From Chloroflexota bacterium (lineage in GTDB: Bacteria; Chloroflexota; Limnocylindria; Limnocylindrales; CSP1-4), in NCBI GenBank assembly GCA_021813655.1, contig JAKAJU010000128.1, forward strand, positions 1 through 45,706: a DNA stretch of 45,706 nt, read 5' to 3'. Of this stretch, positions 1 to 45,706 are shown piece after piece; the first letter of the stretch is position 1, and each line of letters starts with the position of its first letter. The notes beneath the pieces are model-generated. The model worked only from the letters and a program-made list of their open reading frames with translations, was not told the origin of the DNA and ran no database searches. A program made the position numbers and the translations under genes.

Positions 1-101
1 TCATGGGGTGCGGCCACGGTCGGCGCGGCGGCCATGGCCGGCGCGGCGGCCATGGCCGTGCCGTCGCTGTCGGGGGTGGTGCGGTCACGCCGTCTGGTCA
101 T
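1..101 (-). CDS. 5' end of an unidentified gene, cut by window edge
   Basis: The reading frame opens at an ATG (101-99) inside an ATGA overlap with the fmt stop codon and stays open to position 1, giving about 33 residues. They are basic at first (MTRRRDR) and then alanine-rich, with the hexamer AMAAAP twice, encoded by an exact 18-bp tandem repeat at 21-56. Genes after def-fmt in other bacteria often encode the 16S rRNA methyltransferase RsmB, but nothing in these few residues identifies a family. That a gene starts here is inferred from the translational-coupling pattern seen elsewhere in the window. Confidence 0.5.
   Translation of the reverse strand, partial: MTRRRDRTTPDSDGTAMAAAPAMAAAPTVAAPH
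21..56. repeat. 18-bp tandem repeat, two exact copies
   Basis: Two exact adjacent copies of an 18-bp unit (starting cggcgcggcgg, ending ccatggc). On the minus strand they are in frame in the partial gene and encode AMAAAP twice. Confidence 0.9.
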
Positions 102-1126
102 GTCGGCGCGGATTCTCGCACGCCCGACGCGGCGCGAACGGTGGAACCCACGAGCGCAGGCCGGCCCCGGCGCATCTCGGCCGCGCTCATGACCCGCCCT
201 CCCGCGAGCTGGAGGCGCGTGAGTCGCAGGAGCCCCTCGGACGTGGCGAGCGCGAGGCCGTCGCCGTCCGCGACGATCGACCCGACCGCGACGCCGGGCC
301 GCGCCGTGTCGCCGGGGGTCGCGGCGGCGCCATCGTGCACGATGAGCCGGCCCGCGGGGACCTCGACGAAGGAGCCGGGCCACGGGCGGAGCGCGCGGAT
401 CCGGCGCTCGAGGACGATGGCGGGCTGGGTCGGATCGAGGCGTCCGTCCTCCCGGCGCAGAGGCCGCGTCGACGTCGCGCCGTCGTCGGACTGGGGGACG
501 GCATCGATCTCCTCCCGAAGCCAGGGTCCCAGGGTGGCAGCCAGGAGCGCGACCCCGTCCGTCGCGAGCGCAGCCTCGAGATCCGGGGTGGACTCGGTCC
601 CGTCGAGGGGCCGCCGGGTCACCGCGACGATCGGCCCCGTGTCCACGCCCGCGTCCATCGCGATGACCGTCACGCCGGTCTCGCGGTCGCCGGCCGCGAT
701 CGCGGCGGGCACGGGCGTCGCGCCGCGGTGGCGCGGCAGGAGGGACGGGTGGACGTTGAGGAAGCCCCGGCGCGGGATGTCGAGGAGGGTCGCGGGGACG
801 ATCCGCCCGTAGTCCGCCACGACGGCCAGGTCCGGGTCCAGGTCGCGCAGCATGGCGACCGCCGCGGTGTCACGAAGCGTGGCGGGCTGGCGGAGGTCCA
901 GGCCGGCGCCGCGCGCGCGTGCGGCGACGGGCGTGGCGGTCGGGATGCCATCGCGTCCGGACGGCCGGTCGGGCGTCGACACGACGGCGACGGGCCTCGT
1001 CGCCGGATCCGCGAGCAGGCGGTCGAGCAGCGTGGCCGCGAACGGACCGGACCCGAAGAAGACGATCCGGGCGGGCCGGGCTGTCGCCGGGCGCGCACCG
1101 TGCGCGGACGGGAGCGGGCCGTCCAC
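98..1126 (-). CDS. fmt: Methionyl-tRNA formyltransferase
   Basis: Transfers a formyl group from 10-formyltetrahydrofolate to Met-tRNAfMet for translation initiation, in the cytoplasm. The 342 residues have the usual length and two-domain layout. The N-terminal Rossmann region opens with RIVFFGSGPFAA. The signature VHPSLLPRHRGATPV carries the catalytic His, and AMDAGVDTGPI carries the catalytic Asp. The C-terminal half holds the OB-like tRNA-binding domain (LRPWPGSF). The start is GTG, the only in-frame start before the conserved core; the first 18 residues are a Pro/Ala-rich extension. It lies 4 bp after def, the classic def-fmt pair, and its stop overlaps the next start as ATGA. Confidence 0.95.
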   Translation of the reverse strand: MDGPLPSAHGARPATARPARIVFFGSGPFAATLLDRLLADPATRPVAVVSTPDRPSGRDGIPTATPVAARARGAGLDLRQPATLRDTAAVAMLRDLDPDLAVVADYGRIVPATLLDIPRRGFLNVHPSLLPRHRGATPVPAAIAAGDRETGVTVIAMDAGVDTGPIVAVTRRPLDGTESTPDLEAALATDGVALLAATLGPWLREEIDAVPQSDDGATSTRPLRREDGRLDPTQPAIVLERRIRALRPWPGSFVEVPAGRLIVHDGAAATPGDTARPGVAVGSIVADGDGLALATSEGLLRLTRLQLAGGRVMSAAEMRRGRPALVGSTVRAASGVRESAPT

Positions 1127-1130
1127 CGCC

Positions 1131-1655
1131 TCAGCCGCGGTGCGCGAGGGCCTCGCGCTCCTCCTCGTCGACCCCCTCCTCCTCGAGCGAGCTCACCGGG
1201 ATGAGCTCGGTCTCGAGATCGGTGAGGTAGTCGATGAAGAGCTTGCCGTCGAGGTGATCGATCTCGTGCTGGAGAGCGCGCCCGAGGAGTCCCGATCCGC
1301 TGACCTTGTACTTCTTCCCTCTCCGGTCCTGCGCCACGACCCAGACCTTCTCCTTCCGGGTCACGTACGCGAAGAAGCCGGGGATCGACAGGCATCCCTC
1401 GAGGTCACGGTCCTCGCCGTCGGCGCGGACGATCCGCGGGTTCACGAGCTCGAGGAGCCGACCGCTCACCTCGACCACGGCCACGTCCAGGGCCTCACCG
1501 AGCTGCGGCGCAGCGAGGCCGACGCCGGGCGCGTGGCGCATCGTGTCGGTCAGGTCGTCGATGAGCTCGTGGAGGTACTTGCCGAACGAGTCGACGGGCT
1601 GGCCCTCGAGGCGCAGCCGCGGGTCGCCAAGGGTGAGGATGGGGAGCACGCTCAT
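1131..1655 (-). CDS. def: Peptide deformylase
   Basis: Removes the N-formyl group from nascent proteins; a metal-dependent cytoplasmic enzyme. The 174 residues include all three family motifs: GVGLAAPQ (residues 44-51), EGCLS with metal-binding Cys88, and HEIDH with His130, Glu131 and His134. An acidic, Glu-rich tail (about 150-170) follows the catalytic domain. It is upstream of fmt with only 4 bp between them, so the pair is one transcript that adds and removes formyl groups. A TATACT box ends 7 nt before the ATG and no Shine-Dalgarno sequence precedes it, so the message is probably leaderless. Confidence 0.97.
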   Translation of the reverse strand: MSVLPILTLGDPRLRLEGQPVDSFGKYLHELIDDLTDTMRHAPGVGLAAPQLGEALDVAVVEVSGRLLELVNPRIVRADGEDRDLEGCLSIPGFFAYVTRKEKVWVVAQDRRGKKYKVSGSGLLGRALQHEIDHLDGKLFIDYLTDLETELIPVSSLEEEGVDEEEREALAHRG

Positions 1656-1662
1656 GGCCGCG

Positions 1663-1668
1663 AGTATA
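1663..1668 (-). promoter_or_regulatory. -10 box TATACT of def-fmt
   Basis: TATACT on the minus strand, 7 nt upstream of the def ATG. Transcription would begin at or next to the A of the ATG, so the mRNA would be leaderless. No convincing -35 element is visible. Confidence 0.6.
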
Positions 1669-1718
1669 GCCGAGGGGTCCCGGAGCCCCGGCGCATCCAG
1701 GCGTGGAGCCCGGACACG

Positions 1719-4199
1719 TCAGAGCATGGATTCCGGGTCCACGTCCACGGTCCATGGCGACGGCGGTGTCCCCTCGAGGAGCCTGACGGGATCGGGCCCG
1801 CGCAGCGCGACGTTCCACCGCCACCGGCCCGCCCGGCGCGCGACGTACGCGGGAGCCGGACCGATGACCGCTGTCGCCGACGCCCGTGCGATCGCGCGGT
1901 CGCGGAGCGCGGTCGCCATCTCGAGCGCCGCGCGCCTGCCCGCCTCCCGGTCGGGCAGCGCGATCGTCAGCTTCACGAGCCGCCCGAACGGCGGCGAGCC
2001 CACGAGCCGCCGGAGCGCGAGCTCATCGTCGTAGAAGGCGGCGACGTCACCCGTCGCGACCGCGCGCATCACCGGGTGCTCCGGGAGGTACGTCTGGACG
2101 ATCGCCCGCCCCGGACGCGCGCCGCGGCCCGCCCGGCCGATCGCCTGGACGACGAGCTGGAGCGTCCGCTCGGCCGCCCGCTCATTGGGCAGGTTGAGGG
2201 CGACGTCCGCCGAGACCACGCCCACGAGCGTGACCTCGGGGACGTCGAGCCCCTTCGTCACGAGGCTCGTGCCCACGAGCACATCGAGGCGGCCCTCGCC
2301 GAACGCATCGATGACGCGCACCGCCTCGCCCTTCCGCTCGACGACGTCGCGGTCGAGCCGTCCGACGCGCAGCCCGGGGAAGCGCTCGGCCACCTCGCGC
2401 TCGATCCGCTCCGTCCCGCCGCCCAGGTACCGGACCCGCGCCGACCCACACCCGCGGCACCGCAGCGGCACCGGCGCCGACGCCCCGCAGTGGTGGCAGC
2501 GGAGCACCGCCGCCGCCTCGTGGTAGACGAGCGGGCGGTCGCAGTCGGGGCATGTCTCCACGCGCCCGCAGTCACGGCACAGGACCACCGACGCCGCCCC
2601 GCGGCGGTTCATCACGAGGATCGCGCGCTCGCCGGCGCCGACATCGAGGGCGGCGAGGGCCTCCGTCAGCCGCCGCGAGAGCAGCCCGCGGTTGCCCGCC
2701 GCGAGCTCCGCGCGGAGGTCGATGACCTCGACCGTCGGCGCCGCCCCGGACAGCCTCGCCGGCAGCGAGATCCGCGCGTACGTGCCGTCGGCCGCGCGAC
2801 CGAACGTCTCCACCGCGGGCGTCGCGCTGCCGAGGACGACCGCCGCGCCGGCGAGCGCGCCGAGGCGGATCGCGACGTCGCGGGCCTGCAGCCGAGGTAG
2901 CCGATCGCTCTTGTACGCGGGGTCGTGCTCCTCGTCGACGATGACGACCCCGACGTCCGCCAGGGGCGCCGTCACGGCGATGCGCGTCCCCACGACGACA
3001 TCGACGCCGCCCGCGCGGACCCGGCGCCACTCGTCCGCCCGTTCGCCCTCGCCGAGCGCCGAGTGGAGGACCGCGACCTCCGCGTCCAGGTCGGCGCGGA
3101 GGCGGTCGAGCAGCGGTGTGGCGAGCGCGACCTCCGGGACGAGGACGAGCGCGGGCCTGCCCGCGGCGAGCGACGCGGCGATCGCCTCCACGTAGACGGC
3201 GGTCCGTCCACCGCCCGTCACGCCGTCGATGAGCAGCGGCCGGGCGTCGCGCGCGTCGAGCGCCGCGCGGATCGCCGCCACGGCCGTCGCCTGCTCAGGC
3301 GAGAGCGAGGCGCCGGCCGGCCGTCCACCCCGACTGCCGGCGGCCCGTCCCTCGAGCGGACGGCGCGCTCGCTCGCGCACCTCCGCGACCGCGAGGCCGC
3401 GGCGCACGAGGGCAGCAGGGACGCCGGTCCCGTGGGTCGCGGCGATCCGCGCGGCGGGAGCTCCGTCGGGCTCGGCGCCGATCTCCGCAAGGGCGGCCTT
3501 CTGGCGTGCCCCGAGGGGCCGTGCGCGGGGGGACCGGGGCGCCGCGACGGTCGGCACCCCGTCGCACTCGGTCCCTCCCGACCGCTCCACGTCGGGCTGG
3601 GGACCGACGCCGGCCGCGGCGCGGCCGGCGTCGGTGAGGCGGAGCCATCGGTCGTACCGGGGCCCGGCCCCAGCCGCGCGGAGCTCCCAGGCGAGGTGGA
3701 TGAGCCCCCGGTCCTCGAGCTCGTGGAGGCGACGCAGCCCGGCCGCCCTTCCCGCGTCGCCGACGAGGTCGACCGCCGGACGCGGTCCGGCCTCCAGGCG
3801 CGCGAGGATGTCGCGGACCCACGGATCGTCGACGCCGGTGCTCCCCTCTCCCTCCGGATCGCGTTCGGCGACCAGCTCCAGCCTCTCGAGGGTGCGGGGC
3901 GGCAGCATCGCCCTGATCGTCGCCGCGAGCGGCGCGAGATACGTCTCCGAGATCCACGTGGCGAGCGCGAGCGAGAGCGGCGGCAGGATCGGGCCGTCCG
4001 CGCGGACCCGCGAGACCAGCGGCTTCGTGGGGACGGCGGGATCCGCGTCGAGCCGCGCGACGACGATCGCGAGGGCGCGGCGCCGGCCGAACTCCACGAG
4101 CACCGCCTCCCCGGGGACGACGTCGTCGGTCTCCGCGGTCAGGTGGTAGGTGTACGGCCGGTCCCCGCCCGCGCCGGCGGCATCGACGGCGACCTGCAC
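1719..4199 (-). CDS. priA: Primosomal protein N' (PriA) with altered Walker A
   Basis: PriA recognises stalled or collapsed replication forks and reloads the replicative helicase. The 826 residues have the family layout: N-terminal 3'-DNA-binding region (PYTYHL...VLVEFGRRRALAIVV), winged helix, helicase lobe with VIVDEEH, four Cys pairs for two zinc ions (CRDC, CPDC, CHHC, CRGC), then the second helicase lobe (QAIGRAGRG). The Walker A motif reads GVTGGGRT where the family has GVTGSGKT: the ATP-binding lysine is Arg332 (codon CGG, 3206-3204). The start is GTG; the frame stays open through the 109 bp back to gmk (Pro/Ala/Asp-rich) but offers no better start. Actinobacterial PriA proteins are known to be helicase-defective; this may be an intermediate state. 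Confidence 0.93.
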   Translation of the reverse strand: MQVAVDAAGAGGDRPYTYHLTAETDDVVPGEAVLVEFGRRRALAIVVARLDADPAVPTKPLVSRVRADGPILPPLSLALATWISETYLAPLAATIRAMLPPRTLERLELVAERDPEGEGSTGVDDPWVRDILARLEAGPRPAVDLVGDAGRAAGLRRLHELEDRGLIHLAWELRAAGAGPRYDRWLRLTDAGRAAAGVGPQPDVERSGGTECDGVPTVAAPRSPRARPLGARQKAALAEIGAEPDGAPAARIAATHGTGVPAALVRRGLAVAEVRERARRPLEGRAAGSRGGRPAGASLSPEQATAVAAIRAALDARDARPLLIDGVTGGGRTAVYVEAIAASLAAGRPALVLVPEVALATPLLDRLRADLDAEVAVLHSALGEGERADEWRRVRAGGVDVVVGTRIAVTAPLADVGVVIVDEEHDPAYKSDRLPRLQARDVAIRLGALAGAAVVLGSATPAVETFGRAADGTYARISLPARLSGAAPTVEVIDLRAELAAGNRGLLSRRLTEALAALDVGAGERAILVMNRRGAASVVLCRDCGRVETCPDCDRPLVYHEAAAVLRCHHCGASAPVPLRCRGCGSARVRYLGGGTERIEREVAERFPGLRVGRLDRDVVERKGEAVRVIDAFGEGRLDVLVGTSLVTKGLDVPEVTLVGVVSADVALNLPNERAAERTLQLVVQAIGRAGRGARPGRAIVQTYLPEHPVMRAVATGDVAAFYDDELALRRLVGSPPFGRLVKLTIALPDREAGRRAALEMATALRDRAIARASATAVIGPAPAYVARRAGRWRWNVALRGPDPVRLLEGTPPSPWTVDVDPESML

Positions 4200-42482: not shown

Positions 42483-44306
42483 CTAGACCCGCTCCGGCTT
42501 GCCGGAGACCCAGGCGAGCAGCTCGGGGAGCGGCCGCGTGTTCACGACGTGTCGCGCCTCGACCCAGCCGCGTCGAGCCTGGTCCACGCCCCAGCGGAGG
42601 AAGTCGAGCTCGCTCGTCCGATGAGCGTCCGAATCGATCGCCACCAGGCAACCGGCCTCGATCGCCCGGCGCGCCCGCTCCGCCGACAGGTCGAGCCGCG
42701 GCGGCGACCCGTTGATCTCGAGCGCGGTGCCGGTCGCGGCCGCGGCCTCGAAGACAGCGTCCCAGTCGAGGTCGAGGTCGGCCCGCTCCTGGATCATCCG
42801 GCCGGCCGGATGCGCGATGACGTCGACATGCGGGCTCCGGATCGCGTTGAGGGTCCGCCGCGTGAGCTCGTCGCGCGACTGCCGCCGTGCCACGTGCACC
42901 GACGCGACGACGAGGTCGAAGCGCGCCAGGAGGTCGTCTGGGTAGTCGAGAGCGCCGTCGGCGCGCACCTCGAGCTCGCAGCCGTGCAGGAGCCGGAAGC
43001 CGGCCACCGCGCCAGCGGGCAGCGTCCCGACGGCGTCCTCGACCGCATACCGCGCGTTCAGCTCCGCGATGACGCGGCGCTGCTGCTCCACCCGCGCGGG
43101 CTCGAGACCGTGTGCGATGGCGAGGCTCTGCGAGTGGTCCGTCAGCACCTGGTACGCATGGCCGCGCCGCCGCGCGGCGTCCGCCATGACCTCGATCGCG
43201 TGCACGCCGTCGCTCCAGTCGGAGTGCGCGTGCAGGTCGCCGCGCAGGTCGCCCCGGGTGACCAGCGAGGGCAGCCGGCCCTCGCGAGCCGCAGCGATCT
43301 CGCCGCCGTCCTCGCGCAGCTCGGGTTCGACGTACGCGAGGTCGAGGAACCTGTAGACGGCGGCCTCGTCGGGGAGCGTGCGCAGCTCGGCGCCTGCGCC
43401 CGTCGCCGGCTCGCCGTCCGGGCCGAGCCGCAGGAAGCCCTTCTCCGACAGGCTCCAGCCGCGGTCGCGGGCGATCGCCCGCAGCGCCACGTTGTGTGCC
43501 GCCGACCCCGTGAAGTGGACGAGGTACGTGCCCGCCTCGCCGGGCGGCATGACCATGAGATCGACCTGGGGCCGGCGGAGCAGCGTCACGCTCGCCTTGG
43601 CGTGGCCGGCGCCGAGCACGCGGTCGACGACGCCCAGGCCCGTGAACCGGGAGATGACCGTGTCGGGGTCGTCGGTCTCGACGAGGAGGTCGAGGTCTCC
43701 GACCGTCTCGCGCCGCCGACGGAGCGAGCCCGCCTGGACGATGCGACGGACGCCCGGCGCTCCCTCCAGCTGCGCCACGAGGTCGTCCGCGACGGCCTGC
43801 GCCCGGTCGATGAGCATCCGCTGGGGCCGCTCCTCGAGCTGCCGGATGCCCTCGAGGATCCGCTGTTCCGTCCCGGCAGAGATGCCGCGCAGGCCCTGGA
43901 GCCGACCGGCCTCGGCGGCGTGGCGCAGGTCGTCGAGCGTCTCGACGCCGAGGCCCTCCCAGACAGCCCGGACGGTCTTCGGCCCGACGCCCGGCACCTC
44001 GAGCAGGTCCACGAGGCTGGCCGGCATCTCGGCCCGCAGGCTGTCGTGGAACGCCATGTGGCCGGTGGTCGCGAGCTCGACGATCTTGTCGCCGATCGCG
44101 CTGCCGACCCCCGGGACCGACCGCCGGTCGCCGGATGCGTATGCCGACGCGACCTCGAACGGGGCACGCGCGATCGCGTCGGCCGCCTTGCGGTAGGCCA
44201 GCACCTTGAACACGAGCTCGCCGCGGACCTCGAGCAGGTCGCCGATCTCGTGGAAGATCCGGGCCAGGTCGCCATTGCTGGGCACGGGTCGCTCGTCGGC
44301 GGGCAT
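42483..44306 (-). CDS. polX: DNA polymerase X with PHP exonuclease domain
   Basis: Family X polymerase fused to a PHP phosphoesterase, acting in base-excision and gap repair. In 607 residues: helix-hairpin-helix region (LLEVPGVGPKTVRAVWEGLG), nucleotidyltransferase core GSLRRRRETVGDLDLL with catalytic Asps and VDLMVMPPGEAGTYLVHFTGS, then the PHP domain with DLHAHSDWSDG, LTDHSQSL, VASVH, VIAHPAGR and DSDAHR, so all metal ligands are present. The ATG at 44306 has no Shine-Dalgarno; a weak CATCAT box ends 7 nt upstream and would make it leaderless. The UvrD-type gene diverges from it. Confidence 0.95.
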   Translation of the reverse strand: MPADERPVPSNGDLARIFHEIGDLLEVRGELVFKVLAYRKAADAIARAPFEVASAYASGDRRSVPGVGSAIGDKIVELATTGHMAFHDSLRAEMPASLVDLLEVPGVGPKTVRAVWEGLGVETLDDLRHAAEAGRLQGLRGISAGTEQRILEGIRQLEERPQRMLIDRAQAVADDLVAQLEGAPGVRRIVQAGSLRRRRETVGDLDLLVETDDPDTVISRFTGLGVVDRVLGAGHAKASVTLLRRPQVDLMVMPPGEAGTYLVHFTGSAAHNVALRAIARDRGWSLSEKGFLRLGPDGEPATGAGAELRTLPDEAAVYRFLDLAYVEPELREDGGEIAAAREGRLPSLVTRGDLRGDLHAHSDWSDGVHAIEVMADAARRRGHAYQVLTDHSQSLAIAHGLEPARVEQQRRVIAELNARYAVEDAVGTLPAGAVAGFRLLHGCELEVRADGALDYPDDLLARFDLVVASVHVARRQSRDELTRRTLNAIRSPHVDVIAHPAGRMIQERADLDLDWDAVFEAAAATGTALEINGSPPRLDLSAERARRAIEAGCLVAIDSDAHRTSELDFLRWGVDQARRGWVEARHVVNTRPLPELLAWVSGKPERV

Positions 44307-44430
44307 GTGACCAATGATGCATGAGGATCCTCCGGCGCCCTGACCGTGGCGCCAACGGCCGCTCGCACGCGGCTGCCTGCCGCCGGTCCGGGGTGATCCG
44401 TGGTCGACCGACCGCCGTGAGGATCGGCCG

Positions 44431-45706
44431 GTGGATCGCTCGCCCCACCCCTCCGTCGCCGCCCGGCTCGCGACCCTGTCCCCCGACCAGCGGGCGGCCG
44501 CGACCGCGCCGCCCGGCCCGGTGCTGTGCGTCGCGCCCGCAGGGAGCGGCAAGACGACCACGCTCGTCGCCCGGGTGGCATGGCTCGTGGACACCGGCGT
44601 CGACCCGGCGGCGATCGCCGCGATCACCTTCAACCGTCGTGCCGCCGAGGAGCTGGCCACACGCCTGGCCGACGTCCTTGCGCCGCTGGGCCATGCGGCC
44701 GACGCCGTACGCGTCCGGACGTTCCACGCACTCGGCCGGGAGATCCTCCGTGAGGCCGGCCGCCCGGTCGAGCCGCTCGTCGACCGCGCGCGCCTCCTGC
44801 GCCGTCTCTTCCCCACGGCCGACACCGCGGCGCGGACGCGGATCGACGACGCGATCTCTCGGAGGAAGCTCGATCCGGGTGGCAGGGGCGAGGCGCGAGC
44901 TGCGGGCGGGGCACGAGCCGCGGGCGGGGCGCGAGCGGCGAGCGCGACGGCGGATCCCGCGGTGCAAGCGTGCGTGGAGGCGGCGGTCGACGCATACGAA
45001 CGGGCGGTCCGCGACACGGGCGGCCTGGACTTCGACGATCTGGTGGCCGACGCGCTCCGGCTCCTGGCAGCCGATCCCGCGGTCCTCGCGCTCTGGCGCG
45101 CCCGGTGCGCGCACCTGCTCGTCGACGAGGTCCAGGACGTCGACGCGAGCCAGCTCCGGCTCGCGCTGCTCCTCGCCGCACCGGCCAACCGGATCTTCCT
45201 CGTCGGCGACGACGACCAGTCGATCTACGGCTGGCGGCTCGCGGACGTCCGGCGGATCCTCGGGCTGGCCGCCTCTCTGCCCGGTCTCCGCCGCGTGGAC
45301 CTCGTGACGAACCGCCGATGCCCGCGCCCGGTCGTCGAGCGGGCCGTCCGCCTCGTCGCGTGCAATCGCGAGCGCTTCGCGAAGGAGGTCAGACCGGGGC
45401 CTGCCGCCCGCGGGCGGCTCATCCTGGTCCCAGAGGCCGGCGACGAGGAGGCGACGCTCCGTGCCGTCGTCAGCTCATGGCCCGACGACGGGACGCACGC
45501 GATCCTCGCCCGGACGAATCGCGAGCTGCTGACCGGCCTGATCGTGGTCCTCGACCTGGGAATGGCGTTCCGGGCCGGCCGGATCCCCGAGATCGCGACG
45601 GACGCACGGGTGGACGCCGTCCTCGCGGCGGCGGCACGCGCGGACGGCCGGCTCCCGCCCGCAGCGCGCGTTCTCGCGGGCGCGCGCGTTCTCGCGGGCG
45701 CGCGCG
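44431..45706 (+). CDS. UvrD/Rep-type superfamily I helicase, 3' end cut by window
   Basis: A DNA helicase reading out of the window; 425 codons are visible with no stop. Starting at GTG 44431 (GAGG 8 nt upstream; a TGA at 44341 closes the frame above), it shows LSPDQRAA (Q motif), Walker A APAGSGKTTTL (residues 35-45), ITFNRRAAEELATRL (Ia), VRTFHALGREIL (Ib), LLVDEVQDVD (II), FLVGDDDQSIYGWRLAD (III) and VTNRRCPRPV (IV). A Gly/Ala/Arg repeat (151-170) interrupts the 1B region and a second 6-residue repeat lies at the window edge. It is divergent from polX, suggesting shared repair context. UvrD, PcrA or an AdnB-like type cannot be settled without the C-terminus. Confidence 0.9.
   Translation, partial: MDRSPHPSVAARLATLSPDQRAAATAPPGPVLCVAPAGSGKTTTLVARVAWLVDTGVDPAAIAAITFNRRAAEELATRLADVLAPLGHAADAVRVRTFHALGREILREAGRPVEPLVDRARLLRRLFPTADTAARTRIDDAISRRKLDPGGRGEARAAGGARAAGGARAASATADPAVQACVEAAVDAYERAVRDTGGLDFDDLVADALRLLAADPAVLALWRARCAHLLVDEVQDVDASQLRLALLLAAPANRIFLVGDDDQSIYGWRLADVRRILGLAASLPGLRRVDLVTNRRCPRPVVERAVRLVACNRERFAKEVRPGPAARGRLILVPEAGDEEATLRAVVSSWPDDGTHAILARTNRELLTGLIVVLDLGMAFRAGRIPEIATDARVDAVLAAAARADGRLPPAARVLAGARVLAGAR
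44893..44940. repeat. 18-bp degenerate tandem repeat in the UvrD-type gene
   Basis: Two full 18-bp units differing at two bases, plus a 12-bp partial unit, encoding ARAAGG-ARAAGG-ARAA in frame. Confidence 0.8.
45664..45706. repeat. 18-bp tandem repeat at the window end
   Basis: Two exact 18-bp copies (starting gcgcgcgttctcgc) and a third partial copy reaching the last base. In frame they encode ARVLAG repeated. Confidence 0.9.

Follow-up and report, generated by a model that had tools for sequence, protein, structure and literature searches.

A Chloroflexota PriA with arginine at the Walker A lysine position and an ATP pocket apparently kept under purifying selection

The window, i.e. the whole stretch of 45,706 nucleotides that was analysed, carries a complete priA gene followed by def and fmt (Table 1), a gene order which is ordinary. 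The priA reading frame lies on the minus strand, begins at 4199 and ends at 1719, and contains no internal stop. Its product scores above the gathering thresholds of PriA_3primeBD, DEAD, Helicase_C, Zn_ribbon_PriA and PriA_C, reaches 498 bits on TIGR00595 (cut-off 230) and fits the best PRK05580 model with 625 bits versus 122 bits on the best PRK14873 model. The predicted structure (mean pLDDT 91, pTM 0.90) shows a normal PriA fold with a regular P-loop between the strand comprising residues 321-326 and the helix comprising residues 332-345, and its closest match in the PDB is the PriA-ADP structure 4nl4. Judged by descent and domains, the protein is a PriA, and the 3.0 Mb draft genome carrying the window contains no second copy.

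Table 1. Features of the priA locus and its neighbours in the window.
Feature	Residues	Position	Strand	Basis
priA, complete, GTG start	826 aa	1719..4199	-	ORF call, family matches
N-terminal 3' DNA-end binding domain, PF17764		3900..4196	-	Pfam match
Walker A / motif I, GVTGGGRT	326-333	3201..3224	-	
Arg codon CGG, Walker A lysine replaced	332	3204..3206	- (read 3206-3204)	
Motif II, DEEH, intact	422-425	2925..2936	-	
Motif III, GSAT (GSATP), intact	457-460	2820..2831	-	
Cysteine-rich zinc region, eight cysteines, intact	541-584	2448..2579	-	
Motif V, GTSLVTKG, intact	643-650	2250..2273	-	
Motif VI, QAIGRAGR, including arginine fingers, intact	685-692	2124..2147	-	
PriA C-terminal domain, PF18074		1785..1991	-	Pfam match
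def, peptide deformylase, next downstream of priA		1131..1655	-	
fmt, methionyl-tRNA formyltransferase		98..1126	-	

The initial annotation had pointed out that Arg332 takes the place of the Walker A lysine while motif II, all eight zinc cysteines (541, 544, 550, 553, 568, 571, 581 and 584) and the later helicase motifs persist, and reading of the sequence bears this out. The last residue of motif V, Gly650, is exchanged for alanine in the congener L007 and for serine in L122. The Walker A lysine (GxGKT) is a mark of the active helicase, not of descent; it is absent from the window PriA, whose Walker A sequence does not support the status of an active helicase.

Arginine occupies this position in all four genomes of the genus as well as in the public record L008, encoded by CGG or CGT within open frames. 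As to the question, raised in the initial annotation, of whether the residue is fixed among relatives from the same phylum, it is fixed in the genus and recurs independently in the family. A sequencing error in a single strain, named there as a possible refutation, is ruled out by these congeners. In a broader form the objection would be that we are dealing with an artefact, be it a sequencing or assembly error, a degraded copy or a paralogue residing beside a normal PriA, and the source being a draft metagenome-assembled genome lends it some weight. Yet the differing codons and open frames of the congeners, the single PriA of the genome and dN/dS values well below 1 refute this reading, whose residual probability we regard as negligible. 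Arg332 is confirmed as more than chance or error.

Among the 27 genera sampled in the family CSP1-4, three harbour arginine (g1, the genus of the window, g8 and g13), 23 harbour lysine and one (g10) possesses a decayed PriA. The arginine is shared by every g8 genome whose PriA could be read (four of four). In the family alignment, the remaining 53 PriA rows that were readable all have lysine, encoded by AAG throughout. Arginine PriA was not found in other families of the same class. Neither was it present among those matches outside the arginine genera which were read from a scan of 400 genomes of the phylum, where a loose DNA pattern matched in 59 genomes and part of the matches were read; as this pattern requires the exact motif, other arginine variants may escape it. 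The matches read outside the arginine genera turned out to be MurQ-like (GITASGRT), peptidase-like or chance frames. A PriA with Walker A arginine occurs in a few uncultured Chloroflexota genera. Elsewhere, in family f5, the PriA proteins L142, L147, L148 and L150 have DEAH as motif II, not DEEH.

The PriA proteins of the arginine clades are poor in lysine (0.5-0.6%) and rich in arginine (12%), and the mean GC content of the arginine priA genes in g1 and g8 amounts to 0.77-0.78. Drift from lysine to arginine driven by high GC is ruled out, since several lysine genes are equally GC-rich, since the conserved PriA lysines K430, K649 and K743 remain lysine and since RecG, Mfd, UvrB and PcrA of the same genome retain their Walker A lysine. 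General lysine loss is therefore no explanation, and among the ATPases checked the exchange is specific to PriA. We would like to note that the window contains a further, UvrD-like helicase with an intact APAGSGKT motif (44431-45705, plus strand), which runs past the window end and whose frame overlaps a PolX-like reading frame on the opposite strand (42483-45188, minus strand).

In a maximum-likelihood PriA tree, built with the Walker A columns removed, the Walker A label changes four times, and three of these changes are forced by well-supported branches. The grouping of g1 and g8 into one arginine clade is rejected (p-AU 0.005), whereas that of g1 and g13 is not rejected by the topology test, the constrained tree even obtaining the better score. 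Hence, the exchange has arisen independently at least two times within the family, but not surely three times.

Two measures of selection on the motor diverge slightly. Only one of 22 ATP-site positions varies in g1 (G650A, in L007) and none does in g8, in contrast to 25-26% of all motor positions within the same two clades. The dN/dS of the motor ranges from about 0.08 to 0.18 in arginine pairs and from 0.05 to 0.18 in lysine pairs, so that the two ranges overlap, and it lies below that of the terminal domains; DEEH is intact in all arginine rows. Changes at conserved motor columns, counted with near relatives left out, are about twice as frequent in arginine rows (median 0.036) as in lysine rows (0.017), a difference to which a p-value cannot fairly be attached since the rows are phylogenetically non-independent and which hints at a mild relaxation. 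Taken as sequence evidence, these patterns indicate that arginine PriA retains its ATP pocket under purifying selection as its lysine relatives do. The constraint on the arginine fingers and the catalytic glutamate may mean that hydrolysis is retained, or it may serve structure and DNA binding only.

The first of these options leads to the reading that the arginine P-loop works and that the enzyme is still an active ATPase and helicase, perhaps by virtue of local compensation, for instance through the GGG/GAG loop or L324V/I. In its favour, motifs II, III and VI are all retained, purifying selection acts on the motor with undiminished strength, two independent fixations occurred without collapse, and the change is conservative in proteins so poor in lysine and rich in arginine. 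The same change, however, abolishes the ATPase of E. coli PriA and accompanies the inactive PriA of D. radiodurans (PMC4504706), and the lysines kept at positions 430, 649 and 743 and in other P-loop helicases deprive the conservative exchange of a general cause. If this reading were true, a natural SF2 helicase would turn over ATP at a useful rate with an arginine P-loop, and the rule that the Lys-to-Arg exchange inactivates the motor would be overturned; we consider it conceivable, yet rather unlikely.

The opposite reading is prompted by the PriA of L123 from genus g10 (locus 230-2416, plus strand, frame uninterrupted as far as the contig end). Here the motor lobes have diverged, Q303, G331, T333, Q685, R689 and R692 are lost, and TAASGAERV and VVGLAAGQ are found at the Walker A and motif VI positions, while DEEH is kept. 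All eight zinc cysteines are kept as well, and in the zinc region conservation is no lower than in its relatives. This protein is likely a true pseudohelicase and, as far as its sequence tells, displays what a PriA motor looks like once it is released from selection; lacking motor residues but keeping its zinc cysteines, it implies that a PriA devoid of a functional motor is seemingly tolerated in the family. As the topology test does not reject the grouping of g8 with g10 (p-AU 0.57), the decay in g10 may have followed the Lys-to-Arg change in g8. By extension, the arginine PriA of the window could be a purely structural pseudohelicase which has lost both ATP binding and hydrolysis, its motor being a scaffold and its motifs remnants. 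The existence of L123 as a possible sister of g8 would fit this, as does the correspondence of the substitution to that of the experimentally tested D. radiodurans pseudohelicase (PMC4504706). But a released motor decays, as L123 demonstrates, whereas the motor dN/dS of the arginine clades overlaps that of the lysine clades and the ATP-site residues stayed nearly invariant while about a quarter of the motor positions changed. We judge a purely structural role unlikely.

Other irregularities are found among the genomes compared. In G012, the genome that carries the decayed PriA, DnaB is represented by two neighbouring fragments which lie in different frames (C174:1558-2867), possibly owing to a frameshift or an assembly error. 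In the sister family f2 of the same order, whose genomes are small at about 1 Mb, the PriA proteins L154, L155 and L156 carry GxPGSGKS as Walker A, KA or KS in place of KG in motif V and GRLGRG in motif VI; their motor is divergent, and they sit on a long branch.

The reading we prefer, with a probability of roughly 0.5, is that of a fork-binding, DnaB-loading PriA which still binds ATP, with hydrolysis being weak or absent. The protein would be the single working PriA of the organism, recognising forks by its 3' DNA-end binding domain together with the zinc region and helping to return DnaB to the DNA. DnaB and DciA are both present in the window genome, DciA being the sole loader-type protein found there; the search for DnaC/DnaI in this genome gave only one weak match, a longer frame near DciA which we read as DnaA. 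With arginine at the Walker A position, ATP hydrolysis is very probably lost for the most part or altogether, so that little or no unwinding of the lagging strand would be expected, as in E. coli K230R. Since the nucleotide pocket is still selected, the motor likely binds ATP and changes shape, with turnover being absent or very slow; it is the selection pattern that suggests retained ATP binding. Whatever unwinding occurs would fall to RecG or PcrA/UvrD, or loading would take place at gapped forks. The initial annotation had suggested looking for another restart helicase, and a RecG-like helicase and PcrA/UvrD are indeed present in the genome; PcrA/UvrD-type helicases occur in 20 of 20 genomes checked. 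We infer both the loader role and the identity of the substitute helicase for the window PriA.

This reading preserves one half of what the initial annotation had proposed, namely that the Lys-to-Arg exchange normally abolishes hydrolysis and may leave a structural loader only. Loss of hydrolysis and unwinding is likely in view of the literature on K230R and on D. radiodurans PriA, precedents which made the idea a reasonable one. That the role is structural only, however, is not established, because the constraint on ATP site and motor persists in the arginine clades, unlike in L123.

Whether PriA needs its motor in replication restart is an old question, approached so far via K230R and one natural pseudohelicase. 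A single family containing lysine, arginine and fully decayed PriA, with at least two Lys-to-Arg changes, offers a natural series which could separate the PriA functions that need hydrolysis, ATP binding or neither.

The nearest relatives in kind are canonical PriA proteins of the same family (GVTGGGKT; for example L009, L012 and L089), which share about 64-67% full-length identity and the same domains and motifs with the window PriA but have the Walker A lysine, as do all 53 such alignment rows. The actinobacterial PriA proteins (PRK14873), which the initial annotation had invoked as a parallel, have degenerate motor motifs and are thought to lack helicase activity; the window PriA fits PRK05580 far better, and the closer parallel lies in Deinococcus-Thermus. 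E. coli PriA K230R (priA300) bears the identical substitution at the equivalent residue of an otherwise canonical motor, and according to work cited in PMC4504706 it has neither ATPase nor helicase activity, yet still assembles primosomes. The allele disables the PriA/PriC pathway only, with rep gaining importance (PMC9713433), and its product no longer unwinds joint molecules in the absence of RecG and RuvAB (PMC4752480). It is, however, a laboratory allele in an organism which also has PriB, PriC, DnaT and DnaC, whereas the arginine of the window lineage has been fixed in nature. Such natural fixation is shared by Deinococcus-Thermus PriA, which combines arginine at the Walker A lysine position with a poor motif II; the D. 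radiodurans protein exhibits no measurable ATPase and negligible unwinding, while its fork binding is near normal and it interacts with DnaB (PMC4504706). There, too, the DNA-binding function is kept and PriA is single, with no clear PriB or DnaT reported. The phylum is unrelated, though, and the origins of the arginine are independent; moreover, motif II is degenerate in Deinococcus-Thermus, whereas motifs II, III and VI of the window PriA are intact and under purifying selection. The exchange of lysine for arginine in PriA is thus already known from Deinococcus, and what differs here is the motor that has been retained and kept under selection.
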